Assembly: GCA_022865865.1 (NCBI GenBank) | Contig: JALHTN010000135.1 | Location: 1-7,774, forward strand | DNA: 7,774 bases | Direction: 5' to 3' | Source: Anaerolineales bacterium | GTDB taxonomy: Bacteria > Chloroflexota > Anaerolineae > Anaerolineales > UBA4823 | Shown: positions 4,816 through 7,774 of the stretch, piece after piece | How positions within the stretch are numbered: position 1 is the first letter of the stretch | How the letters are laid out: each line of letters starts with the position of its first letter | Translations under genes and position numbers: made by a program | The notes under the pieces: generated by a model | Databases searched by the model: none | What the model saw: the letters and a program-made list of their open reading frames with translations, nothing else | Told to the model about the DNA's origin: nothing

Positions 4816-5790
4816 TTACAGTTCCGAAGTTGCCTTGACGAAATCGAGAACCTCATCAAGTTTGGCGAAAGCTAGAGCCGTCACTGTATCAGCGCCTCCA
4901 TAATAGATCGCTATCCGTCCTGTTTGTGGATCATGAAGTGCAGCACAGGGAAAAGCTACGTTGGGCACATCGCCAACACATTCATAGGTTGTTTGTGGAG
5001 AAAGTAGGTATGGACCACCGCGGTAGATCACTTTCCAGGGCTCATCCAGATCTAGCAGGGCAGCTCCAAAGCTGTAGACAAAGCCATTGCAGGAAGTTAA
5101 GACCCCGTGATAAATCATCAGCCAACCTTCAGACGTCTCAATCGGGACAGGGCCAGCGCCAATTTTGGTGCTTTGCCAGCTGTGAGGTTTGACTCCCATT
5201 ACGAAGCGATGTTGTCCCCAGTGGATGAGATCTGGGCTCTGGCTGAGGAAGATATCCCCGAAGGGTGTGTGGCCATTATCGCTGGGCCGGCTGAGTATGA
5301 CATATAAGTCATTGATCTTCCTCGGGAAGAGTACACCATTGCGATTGAAAGGCAGGAGGGCGTTTTCAAGGAAGTGGAACTTCTCGAAATCGTAGGTATA
5401 ACCAATCCCAATCGTTGGACCGTAATAGCCATTACACCATGTGACGTAGTATCGATCCTCAAGCCAGATCACACGTGGGTCGTAGCGGTATTGATAGCGA
5501 CCAATTTCAGGGTCATCACACAGCCATTCGATGGGATTATCATCCAACGTCCAGTCGATGGCATTGTCACTGAAACCCCGGTGTACGTTCATCTCCCTTT
5601 TCTTATTGTCGCAGCGGAATACGCCGGCATACTTATGCTGGAAGGGGACCACCGCGCTGTTGAAAATGCTGTTCGAGGAGGGGATGAGATCGCGCGGGAT
5701 GATCGGATTGGCGCTGTATCGCCATACGACATCGGAAGAATCGGCTGGTCTTTCTTCCCAGGGTATGTTGGGTAGGCAGGAATAAATCAT
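4816..5790 (-). CDS. Glycoside hydrolase family 130 beta-mannoside phosphorylase
   Basis: This 324-residue protein has the five-bladed propeller pattern of GH130, whose members phosphorolyse beta-mannosides (mannooligosaccharides, mannosyl-glucose or mannosyl-GlcNAc) to mannose-1-phosphate. Visible blocks are [10 protein letters not shown] (residues 28-37), [17 protein letters not shown] (43-59), [16 protein letters not shown] (103-118) with D104 as likely general acid, [18 protein letters not shown] (154-171), [21 protein letters not shown] (from 209), [14 protein letters not shown] (269-282) and [14 protein letters not shown] (295-308). No signal peptide is seen, so it is cytoplasmic. ATG at 5790 is preceded by AAAGGAGG about ten bases upstream. 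It is the first gene of a three-gene minus-strand operon. The GlcNAc kinase-like partner makes mannosyl-GlcNAc, as in N-glycan core use, an attractive substrate, but the subfamily cannot be settled by eye. Confidence 0.9.
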
Positions 5791-5912: not shown

Positions 5913-6080
5913 GATATGGGATTATTTTACATTCAATGGTGTCATCTGTCGGCGAGTACCGATGGTAGTTTTAGACGATTTCGGAGATTCAACACGCCGA
6001 GTCCAGCCGAGTGCCACCTCCTAAAGTCCAAGTTTGGCTAGCCCTAGCTGGAGCTGACCTGCCTGCAGCAGGAGGATAAG
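5913..6080 (+). other. Long 5' leader upstream of the SLATT-protease gene
   Basis: This non-coding stretch contains a direct repeat GCCGAGT (5996-6002 and 6006-6012, period 10) and a small CCTG/CAGG hairpin (6062-6072) overlapping the start of the AGGAGG ribosome binding site (6070-6075). A 41-codon frame from ATG 5916 to TAG 6041 lacks a ribosome binding site and resembles nothing I know. The leader could carry translational control, but no known riboswitch is recognised. Confidence 0.3.
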
Positions 6081-7178
6081 ATGGAGCAAAAGATTCAAGA
6101 ATTAATCGATGATTGGAAACAACGGGTTAATGATATTCAAAAAGCTAATTATGCTTTGGCTATCAAAAACAACAAATATCATTATTGGTTAGGTTTGACC
6201 GCAATTATTTTTACAACGGTTGCAGGTGTGACACTCTTTGCTGAGCCAGCGGAACCCAGGACGAAAAGCATAATTGGCATCGTTGGGATAATAGCAGCAA
6301 TCCTTGCTGCTATTCAGACCTTTTATAGTCATGCAAAAAGGGCTGAAAAGCATCGTCTTGCAGCCTCTCAGCTAGTGCATGTAAGAAGAGATATTGAGAT
6401 ATTTGAGAGATTTGTGCCCGATAATAAATCTGAAAGGGAACAGCGAATTCGTGAAATTGAAGAGAGAATTTCAATATTAGAAACAGATGCTCCAGTAATC
6501 GATGTAAATGAAACGATAAAAAATTTGCCTTGGATTCTACTGGGTTGTACTAGCGCTATTTTGCTGATTTTTCTTCTTTTTCTAGGCAGTGGGTGGCTAG
6601 GGCAAATTCCGGCAACCCAGCAATCCGTCACAAACGGGGCAAGAGAATCCGTTCAACAGGGTATTGAAACTTGGGAGTTTGATTCAAGGGATCCACTTGT
6701 AAAACAACGGATAATTCTTCTCAATACGCTGATCAACGAGGTAACGACTCAAAAAGTTATCACTTTGCTTGCTTATCTAAATGAACAGGATACTGATACA
6801 CCCATTACCCTATATTTGTCTTCAACGGGTGGTTTCACAAAAGATGCATATGCGATTGTACAGGCCATCCATGAATCGGATTCCTTAGTGAATACTGTAG
6901 CTTTAGGCGATTGCTTTTCAGCTTGTTTAAACATACTTATAAGCGGTACGGGAGATAGGAAAATCGCTCATAACTCTCGTATTATGATACATACCCATTC
7001 CTATCCATATGACGACGATCCCCATTCAAATAACTTGATCCTGTATGAGCGAGAAAGGGAATTCTTCCGAGAATACTCTGATATTCCGCTCGATTGGATT
7101 GATAGAAAAGAGAATTTCTATTATTTAACTCCAGAGCAAGCCATTAAATATCAGCTTGCTGATGAAATTTTGAATTAG
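6081..7178 (+). CDS. SLATT-like membrane module fused to a ClpP-fold serine protease domain
   Basis: This 365-residue protein starts at ATG 6081 behind a perfect AGGAGG. Residues 1-135 resemble SLATT/DUF4231: an N-terminal helix, two membrane helices (about 36-54 and 63-82), and a charged coiled coil with AKRAEKHRLAASQLVHVRRD (85-104), the family's typical post-membrane segment. A third membrane helix spans about 150-172. Residues 200-365 form a ClpP/crotonase-fold domain: LYLSSTGGFTKDAYAIVQAI (244-263, oxyanion STGG), GDCFSACLNIL (276-286) with nucleophile S280, NSRIMIHTHS (298-307) with H304, and LTPEQAIKYQLADEIL (349-364). The S-H spacing of 24 fits ClpP (25). The usual acidic residue aligns with F346; D341 or E344 may substitute. 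Positive charges after helix 2 and few after helix 3 place the coiled coil in the cytoplasm and the protease outside. The gene is more A+T-rich than the sugar operon, has its own promoter and no obvious partner. SLATT proteins are known membrane effectors of nucleotide-signalling immunity; that role here is inferred. Confidence 0.75.
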   Translation: MEQKIQELIDDWKQRVNDIQKANYALAIKNNKYHYWLGLTAIIFTTVAGVTLFAEPAEPRTKSIIGIVGIIAAILAAIQTFYSHAKRAEKHRLAASQLVHVRRDIEIFERFVPDNKSEREQRIREIEERISILETDAPVIDVNETIKNLPWILLGCTSAILLIFLLFLGSGWLGQIPATQQSVTNGARESVQQGIETWEFDSRDPLVKQRIILLNTLINEVTTQKVITLLAYLNEQDTDTPITLYLSSTGGFTKDAYAIVQAIHESDSLVNTVALGDCFSACLNILISGTGDRKIAHNSRIMIHTHSYPYDDDPHSNNLILYEREREFFREYSDIPLDWIDRKENFYYLTPEQAIKYQLADEILN

Positions 7179-7377: not shown

Positions 7378-7391
7378 TGAGAGCGCTCCCA
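7378..7391. promoter_or_regulatory. LacI-type operator O1
   Basis: TGAGAGCGCTCCCA is a 14-bp near-perfect palindrome around the central CG step typical of LacI-family sites. It differs from O2 at one base. It lies at about +7 to +20 of the predicted transcript, where a bound repressor would block initiation or escape. Confidence 0.8.
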
Positions 7392-7471: not shown

Positions 7472-7485
7472 TGAGAGCGCTCTCA
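7472..7485. promoter_or_regulatory. LacI-type operator O2
   Basis: TGAGAGCGCTCTCA is a perfect 14-bp palindrome ending about 20 bp before the regulator's start codon. Its centre is 94 bp from that of O1, close to nine turns of B-DNA, so both sites face the same side and could be bridged by a tetramer or act as a roadblock. Confidence 0.82.
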
Positions 7486-7505
7486 TTTATGGCAGGTGAT
7501 GTGTG

Positions 7506-7774
7506 GTGGTGGACCTAACGCTTGAGGACATTGCCAGATTGGTGGGTGTCTCTCGTTCAACCGTCTCAAGGGTGGTGAACAACCACCCAAATGTAAGTGA
7601 AGACGTACGCAAGCATGTCCTTGAAACCATTCGAAGCACCGGGTACCACCCCAACGCTGCAGCCCGTTCCCTGGCCTCACAACGATCGTGGATGATTGGT
7701 TTAATTCTCCCTCATAGCGTGGGCTCGATTTTCATCGATCCATATTTCCCTCAACTCATTCAAGGCATCGCACA
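7506..7774 (+). CDS. LacI-family transcriptional regulator, N-terminal part (runs off right edge)
   Basis: About 89 residues are present before the window ends. The DNA-binding domain is plain: LTLEDIARLVGVSRSTVSRV (residues 4-23) is the LacI helix-turn-helix, followed by NNHPNVSEDVRKHVLETIRS and the hinge YHPNAAARSLAS (47-58), whose leucine L56 normally intercalates into the central CG of the operator. MIGLILP (63-69) begins the periplasmic-binding-protein-like sensor domain. Three consecutive in-frame GTG codons (7503, 7506, 7509) could start translation, and an in-frame TGA at 7497 bars anything further upstream. AGGTGAT (7494-7500) is a usable ribosome binding site and favours 7506 or 7509. 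Two near-identical operators in its own leader indicate autoregulation. The sugar it senses cannot be told from this part; the operon to the left has no such operator, so further targets probably lie to the right. Confidence 0.9.
   Translation, partial: MVDLTLEDIARLVGVSRSTVSRVVNNHPNVSEDVRKHVLETIRSTGYHPNAAARSLASQRSWMIGLILPHSVGSIFIDPYFPQLIQGIA

Follow-up and report, generated by a model that had tools for sequence, protein, structure and literature searches.

A SLATT_4 membrane module joined to a ClpP-fold domain in Anaerolineales-like bacteria: a candidate membrane-tethered ClpP-type peptidase

Results

Architecture of the fusion protein

In the window, that is, the whole stretch of 7,774 nucleotides analysed here, a single gene encodes a protein combining a SLATT domain, a third hydrophobic helix and a ClpP fold with conserved Ser and His. 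We see about an even chance that this fusion is a membrane-tethered ClpP-type ectoprotease or peptidase with SLATT as a cytoplasmic assembly or sensor module. The features of the gene and of its product, all on the plus strand, are:

6070..6075, plus strand, ribosome-binding site AGGAGG, partly within a short hairpin arm (CCTGC...GCAGG)
6081..7178, plus strand, SLATT-TM-ClpP fusion gene, 365 aa
6102..6503, plus strand, SLATT_4 domain (NCBIfam NF033632), residues 8-141
6186..6242, plus strand, TM helix 1, about residues 36-54, hydropathy peak at 43-50 (43 sequences)
6267..6323, plus strand, TM helix 2, about residues 63-81, hydropathy peak at 68-76 (also in L015), model helix 59-81
6330..6485, plus strand, helical hairpin after TM helix 2, residues 84-135, predicted cytoplasmic from the model and charge bias
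6525..6599, plus strand, TM helix 3, membrane-crossing, residues 149-173, hydropathy peak at 156-169, with model and charge bias
6678..7172, plus strand, ClpP-fold domain, residues 200-364, predicted extracytoplasmic
6912..6926, plus strand, C278-F-S280-A-C282, nucleophile Ser between two Cys
6990..6992, plus strand, H304, catalytic His position, invariant (43/43) and aligned with the ClpP His
7110..7112, plus strand, E344, invariant acid two residues ahead of the canonical Asp column (here F346)

Homologue searches among about 5.8 billion proteins yielded 50 and 51 clusters, of which 42 at full length were aligned with the window protein (alignment A1, 47-93% identity). The fusion scored 97 bits on the SLATT_4 model NF033632, for which the cut-off is 55, and is thus a member of SLATT_4; the same model gave 49.4 bits, under that cut-off, on the divergent family member P0043, and the corresponding Pfam model PF18186 gave 21.5 bits on the fusion, below its cut-off of 27. 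The SLATT_4 layout, in which a cytoplasmic helical region comes after two TM helices, was recovered by prediction from hydropathy, the structural model and charge bias, TM helix 1 falling within model helix 3-53 and at the same place in the hydropathy profile of L015. The C-terminal half has the ClpP fold, with S280 and H304 in the ClpP Ser and His columns, and reached 53.9 bits on the ClpP equivalog TIGR00493 (NCBIfam), under the cut-off of 308.6. The first-pass annotation, which had recognised SLATT and ClpP-fold domains by eye, was therefore right on both, and it overlooked the predicted location of the protease domain outside the cytoplasm and the non-canonical nature of the triad Asp.

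Substitution rates showed that constraint acts on the SLATT and ClpP halves alike, with dN/dS values between the window and L001 of 0.29 for SLATT, 0.17 for ClpP (the lowest) and 0.48 for the linker. The hairpin at the ribosome-binding site folded no better than shuffled sequences. The leader of the gene (window 5930-6080) looks conserved in L001 even far ahead of the start codon; it gave no Rfam match and no significant fold.

Predicted topology

Hydropathy and charge predict a ClpP domain on the outer side of the membrane, with the SLATT helices and the N-terminus in the cytoplasm. The Lys/Arg counts of the flanks placed the N-terminus in, the TM1-TM2 loop out, the SLATT hairpin in and the ClpP domain out in 43/43 proteins. 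Since the inside flanks counted were longer than the outside ones (45 versus 23 residues), we recomputed the bias per residue, and the inside again exceeded the outside in 43/43 (means 0.19 versus 0.05). When TM3 was considered alone with equal flanks of 15 residues, the same bias was present in 42 of the 43 proteins, the last one being a tie. The net charge of the ClpP domain averages -10.4.

Active site and handle region

For the active site we used as comparators 27 of the 41 ClpP-only proteins matched in the order search described below. S280, H304, C278, R293, E344, Gly250 and Gly251 are invariant in the fusion family (43/43), and C282 is present in 42 of its members, the exception (P0028) having Tyr. 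All 27 comparators have the same residues in the Ser and His columns. In the sequence alignment, the canonical Asp column contains Asp in 27/27 comparators versus F, L or Y in 43/43 fusion proteins, so that catalytic activity is not assured. The likeliest replacement for the triad Asp is Glu344; this column is also D or E in 26 of the 27 comparators, and the invariance of E344 is thus by itself no proof of a role in the relay.

The handle helix lies between His304 and Tyr348, an interval that spans 44-45 residues in the fusion family versus 51-53 in the 27 comparators, leaving the handle region about 7 residues short of its full length in ClpP. The two heptamers of ClpP meet in this stretch, and its shortening makes a standard tetradecamer, or double ring, doubtful.

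A Cys-flanked serine common to exported-looking ClpP-like proteins

The catalytic Ser lies in a C-F/Y-S-A-C motif that is absent from 27/27 ClpP comparators; none of these ClpP domains of the same order (0/27) has any Cys in the nucleophile stretch. C278 and C282 are the sole cysteines in 31 of the 43 fusion proteins. With the 50-residue motif region as query, eight weak records were obtained (E 1 to 8), four of which were retrieved: the alphaproteobacterial L066 and L067 with the motif, a Photobacterium ClpP (L068) without it, and L069, which contained no ORF. L066 and L067 thus came from a query that was itself the motif region, at non-significant E values of 1-2. Searching with L066 gave 22 records, and nine were retrieved.

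C-x-S-[AS]-C was present in 11 of the 12 ClpP-like plasmid proteins examined, and in each of these 11 the first 60 residues include a hydrophobic segment (13-residue mean 1.89-2.82), which on hydropathy we read as a signal peptide, a lipoprotein signal or an anchor. The twelfth protein, L068, has neither the motif nor a hydrophobic N-terminal segment (0.66). A further plasmid match, L065, is an ordinary ClpP without C-x-S-[AS]-C. The Pfam model CLP_protease gave L066 15.0 bits, below its cut-off of 20.2. The exported Cys-flanked group, which we take to be COG3904, is not the closest profile relation of the fusion domain, whose hhalign score was 162 to ordinary ClpP versus 68 to that group. Because the domain is nearer to ordinary ClpP, the Cys motif may be convergent, having evolved on two occasions under the same condition of export.

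Two exported-looking ClpP-like proteins from rhizobial plasmids carry a C-terminal extension, one of them (L074) annotated as PAN domain-containing and the other (L078) similar by eye. Separately, two genomes of the carrier's family encode ClpP-like proteins of about 200 aa (L045 and L046) with the serine in GSVDSIG and no hydrophobic anchor found.

Distribution of the fusion

The fusion is rare. The rows of the homologue searches that name an organism (P0016, P0036 and P0051) are Anaerolineales or Anaerolineae, and a pattern scan of one genome for each of 84,980 species found a single relative, CP070708, an Anaerolineaceae MAG. Whole-genome searches were centred on this genome (G001), whose order we took as Anaerolineales. 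In overlapping and hence not independent samples, the complete fusion was present in 1/396 genomes of the class, 2/400 genomes of the order (G001 and G550), 1/27 and 1/24 genomes of the families of these two carriers, and 1/400 genomes of the phylum (G001 again). The remaining 42 matches in the order search were 41 ClpP-only proteins and one SLATT-only relative (G726, 165 aa, 39% identity across 111 residues); the second match in the 27-genome family search (G410) was an ordinary clpP. A housekeeping clpP distinct from the fusion is present in the named carrier genome (255.6 bits), adjoining a gene read by eye as clpX-like. No plasmid (0/47) or phage (0/37) record covered at least 80% of the fusion protein. 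The patchy occurrence, with 2/400 genomes of the order, suits an accessory trait, defence included.

Genomic surroundings

The gene surroundings could be read in three loci, the window, L001 and L043, and in all three the fusion lies among genes of oligosaccharide uptake or degradation. The minus strand of the window carries a DUF362 gene, a HigB/HigA pair, a BadF/ROK-type kinase, GH4 and GH130. The relevant features are:

1201-1829, window, minus strand, HigB-like toxin and HTH antitoxin pair in overlapping frames, about 4.3 kb from the fusion
4816..5790, window, minus strand, GH130 mannooligosaccharide phosphorylase-like gene, 85% identity with the L001 copy
7379-7390 and 7473-7484, window, LacI-type operator palindromes before lacI, GAGAGCGCTCCC and GAGAGCGCTCTC
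7503..7772, window, plus strand, LacI-family regulator truncated at the end of the window, 76% identity over 89 residues with L001
800-1831, L043, plus strand, borderline SIR2-domain gene (24.1 bits at a cut-off of 24), about 8 kb upstream of the fusion

The two operators (at most two mismatches) compare with 0.23 expected, and a similar site precedes lacI in L001. The order in L001 is GlcNAc 2-epimerase, MFS, GH1, BadF, GH130, sugar ABC genes and the fusion, followed by lacI, SBP_bac_5, ABC permeases and then a primary sigma factor gene (10 ORFs scanned, plus sigma); the proximity of the latter, about 6.4 kb downstream of the fusion, indicates a core-chromosome setting. In L043, the borderline SIR2-domain gene, a sensor kinase, PadR, and solute-binding and VWA proteins lie upstream of the fusion, which is followed by YdjC, a MalT-type regulator and then the SBP_bac_5 and permeases of L001. 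The window and L001 thus have in common GH130 (85%), the BadF-type kinase (64%) and lacI (76%), and L001 and L043 have in common SBP_bac_5 and two ABC permeases (76-80% identity). Within each carrier's family, SBP_bac_5 (E <= 1e-150) was found only in the fusion-carrying genome (1/27 and 1/24); fusion and transporter are thus inherited together or have moved together. The sharing of neighbours between loci may simply reflect common descent or a joint transfer.

In these three loci, no CD-NTase cyclase, SLOG, reverse transcriptase or other clear defence gene lies beside the fusion. PADLOC, run at 1e-4 on 6 neighbours in the window, 8 in L001 and 11 in L043, gave four matches only and none for the borderline SIR2 gene of L043. 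HigA (PDC-M69A, 23.4 bits), the L001 LacI (mad1, 23.3 bits) and the L043 LuxR-type regulator (CARF3, 26.8 bits) were matched over their helix-turn-helix stretch only, and we read these three as cross-matches. The fourth, L001:17459-18742 (minus strand), matched MzaA (PDLC02203, 215 bits) and is the primary sigma factor, with 358.6 bits to solved SigA; the PDLC02203 model thus seems to cross-match sigma factors.

Other SLATT_4 genes of the order

Searching 301 genomes of the order with the NCBIfam SLATT_4 model gave eight matches, the two fusions and six others. L059 and L060 are standalone SLATT_4 genes directly downstream of CD-NTase cyclases identified by PADLOC. In L063, the gene ahead of SLATT_4 nearly matches the L060 cyclase in its first 40 residues, so that the two cases are probably not independent. 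L061 has SLATT_4 two genes past a PglX-like methyltransferase, and L064, below the SLATT_4 cut-off, adjoins a protein with a BrxL match. In L062 (1833-2762, minus strand), SLATT_4 is fused to a MutT/Nudix-like domain in a 309-aa protein beside an amtB-looking gene (by eye), the Nudix-like part giving 50.8 bits at best, under the equivalog cut-offs. The cyclase and SLATT of L060 belong to a CBASS-like locus (L060:4240-8809) flanked by type II restriction-like and AbiJ-like proteins, and the L063 locus looks like it.

Discussion

The fusion resembles several known systems, each in part. It shares two TM helices and a helical hairpin with the CBASS-like 2TM effectors of SLATT_4 (NF033632; PF18186), but adds a TM helix and a ClpP domain, and no cyclase or SLOG gene was found adjoining it in the three loci. 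It differs from housekeeping ClpP (MEROPS S14) in its membrane anchor, the Cys pair at the Ser, the hydrophobic Asp column and the handle about 7 residues shorter. The exported-looking ClpP-like proteins have a Cys-flanked serine and a predicted extracytoplasmic site in common with it but lack SLATT, and the profile similarity of the fusion domain to them is weaker than to ClpP. SppA-/NfeD-type membrane serine proteases (named by eye), which occur in the genomes of the carrier's family, similarly combine a ClpP/crotonase-type domain with hydrophobic segments, but without C-x-S-A-C (0/4 sequences) and without SLATT. The SLATT-Nudix protein of L062 is comparable in that a single chain carries both SLATT_4 and an enzyme domain, the enzyme being MutT/Nudix-like instead of ClpP.

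The founding SLATT paper (Burroughs 2015) may mention ClpP fusions. That paper aside, the titles and abstract openings of the matches listed for SLATT, SLATT_4/DUF4231 and anchored, exported or fused ClpP contained no description of the SLATT-ClpP architecture, in line with the remark of the first-pass annotation that it knew of no well-described SLATT protein carrying ClpP. As far as these listings show, the fusion is undescribed, both modules being themselves of known kinds.

We favour the ectoprotease or peptidase reading. The SLATT module would oligomerise; it would also sense a cytoplasmic signal, which has been proposed for other SLATT proteins, and would thereby assemble or switch the protease. 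Outside, the Cys pair around Ser280 may be oxidised to a disulfide, Ser280-His304-Glu344 would form the charge relay, and the ClpP domain might need no ATP-driven unfoldase to cleave peptides or envelope proteins that are loosely folded. Rather than an immune operon, its likely setting in some Anaerolineales-like bacteria is the physiology of the envelope or of oligosaccharide uptake. A more specific version, inside-out signalling in which a cytosolic messenger binds the SLATT hairpin, the three TM helices rearrange and a disulfide-stabilised outer ClpP-type ring assembles or opens in an ATP-free manner, is speculative and on balance unlikely.

The first-pass annotation had proposed a defence, cell-suicide or stress effector, and suggested a check of whether homologues of the same architecture cluster near defence genes; the three readable loci, with no cyclase, SLOG or reverse transcriptase gene found beside the fusion, did not show such clustering, and the proposal itself gained no positive support. 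Such an effector, in which SLATT would respond to a signal of infection and death or arrest of the cell would be brought about by the ClpP part, or by disruption of the membrane with its help, now seems to us an improbable reading, yet one with several points in its favour. According to the respective papers, SLATT is needed for phage defence by DRT10 (PMC12632851), is a predicted nucleotide-responsive pore-forming effector in GAP1-type systems (PMC7159879), adjoins UG17 RTs in the case of SLATT_5 (PMC8934634) and occasionally adjoins DRT9 (PMC12483538). The CBASS "2TM Effector" models of PADLOC match the fusion, standalone SLATT_4 genes of the same order adjoin cyclases (L059, L060 and, judged by the first 40 residues of its neighbour, L063), the distribution is rare and patchy, and HigB/HigA and the borderline SIR2 gene are at some distance from the fusion in the window and L043. 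Against these stand the PADLOC results on the neighbours, which came down to cross-matches, the lack of plasmid or phage records covering 80% of the fusion, and the predicted position of the ClpP domain outside, away from cytosolic targets, which it therefore could not cut.

If instead the ClpP domain had lost its relay and formed oligomers at the cell surface for binding or scaffolding, the hydrophobic residue in the canonical Asp column of all 43 proteins and the shortened His304-Tyr348 region would be readily accommodated; but Ser280, His304, Gly250, Gly251, Arg293 and Glu344 are invariant throughout the family and the ClpP part has the lowest dN/dS, and we regard a pseudo-protease as distinctly unlikely. 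That the profile of the domain resembles ordinary ClpP more than the exported set could also suggest a reversed topology, with a cytoplasmic ClpP domain on a membrane leash co-operating with ClpX or ClpC at the membrane. This seems to us very improbable, as the charge bias opposes it in 43/43, the Cys pair is common to exported-looking ClpP-like proteins and the handle region is shortened.

The membrane-tethered peptidase would represent ClpP-type proteolysis that takes place outside the cytoplasm and without an unfoldase. SLATT proteins are predicted pore-type effectors whose mechanism is not settled in the cited papers, and a SLATT module linked to a measurable enzyme across the membrane would offer a direct readout of transmembrane signalling by SLATT. 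Should the inside-out reading be true, it would represent a new control of extracellular proteolysis by a signal from inside the cell and a physiological, non-immune use of the SLATT module. The fusion also warns against labelling every SLATT gene a defence gene.
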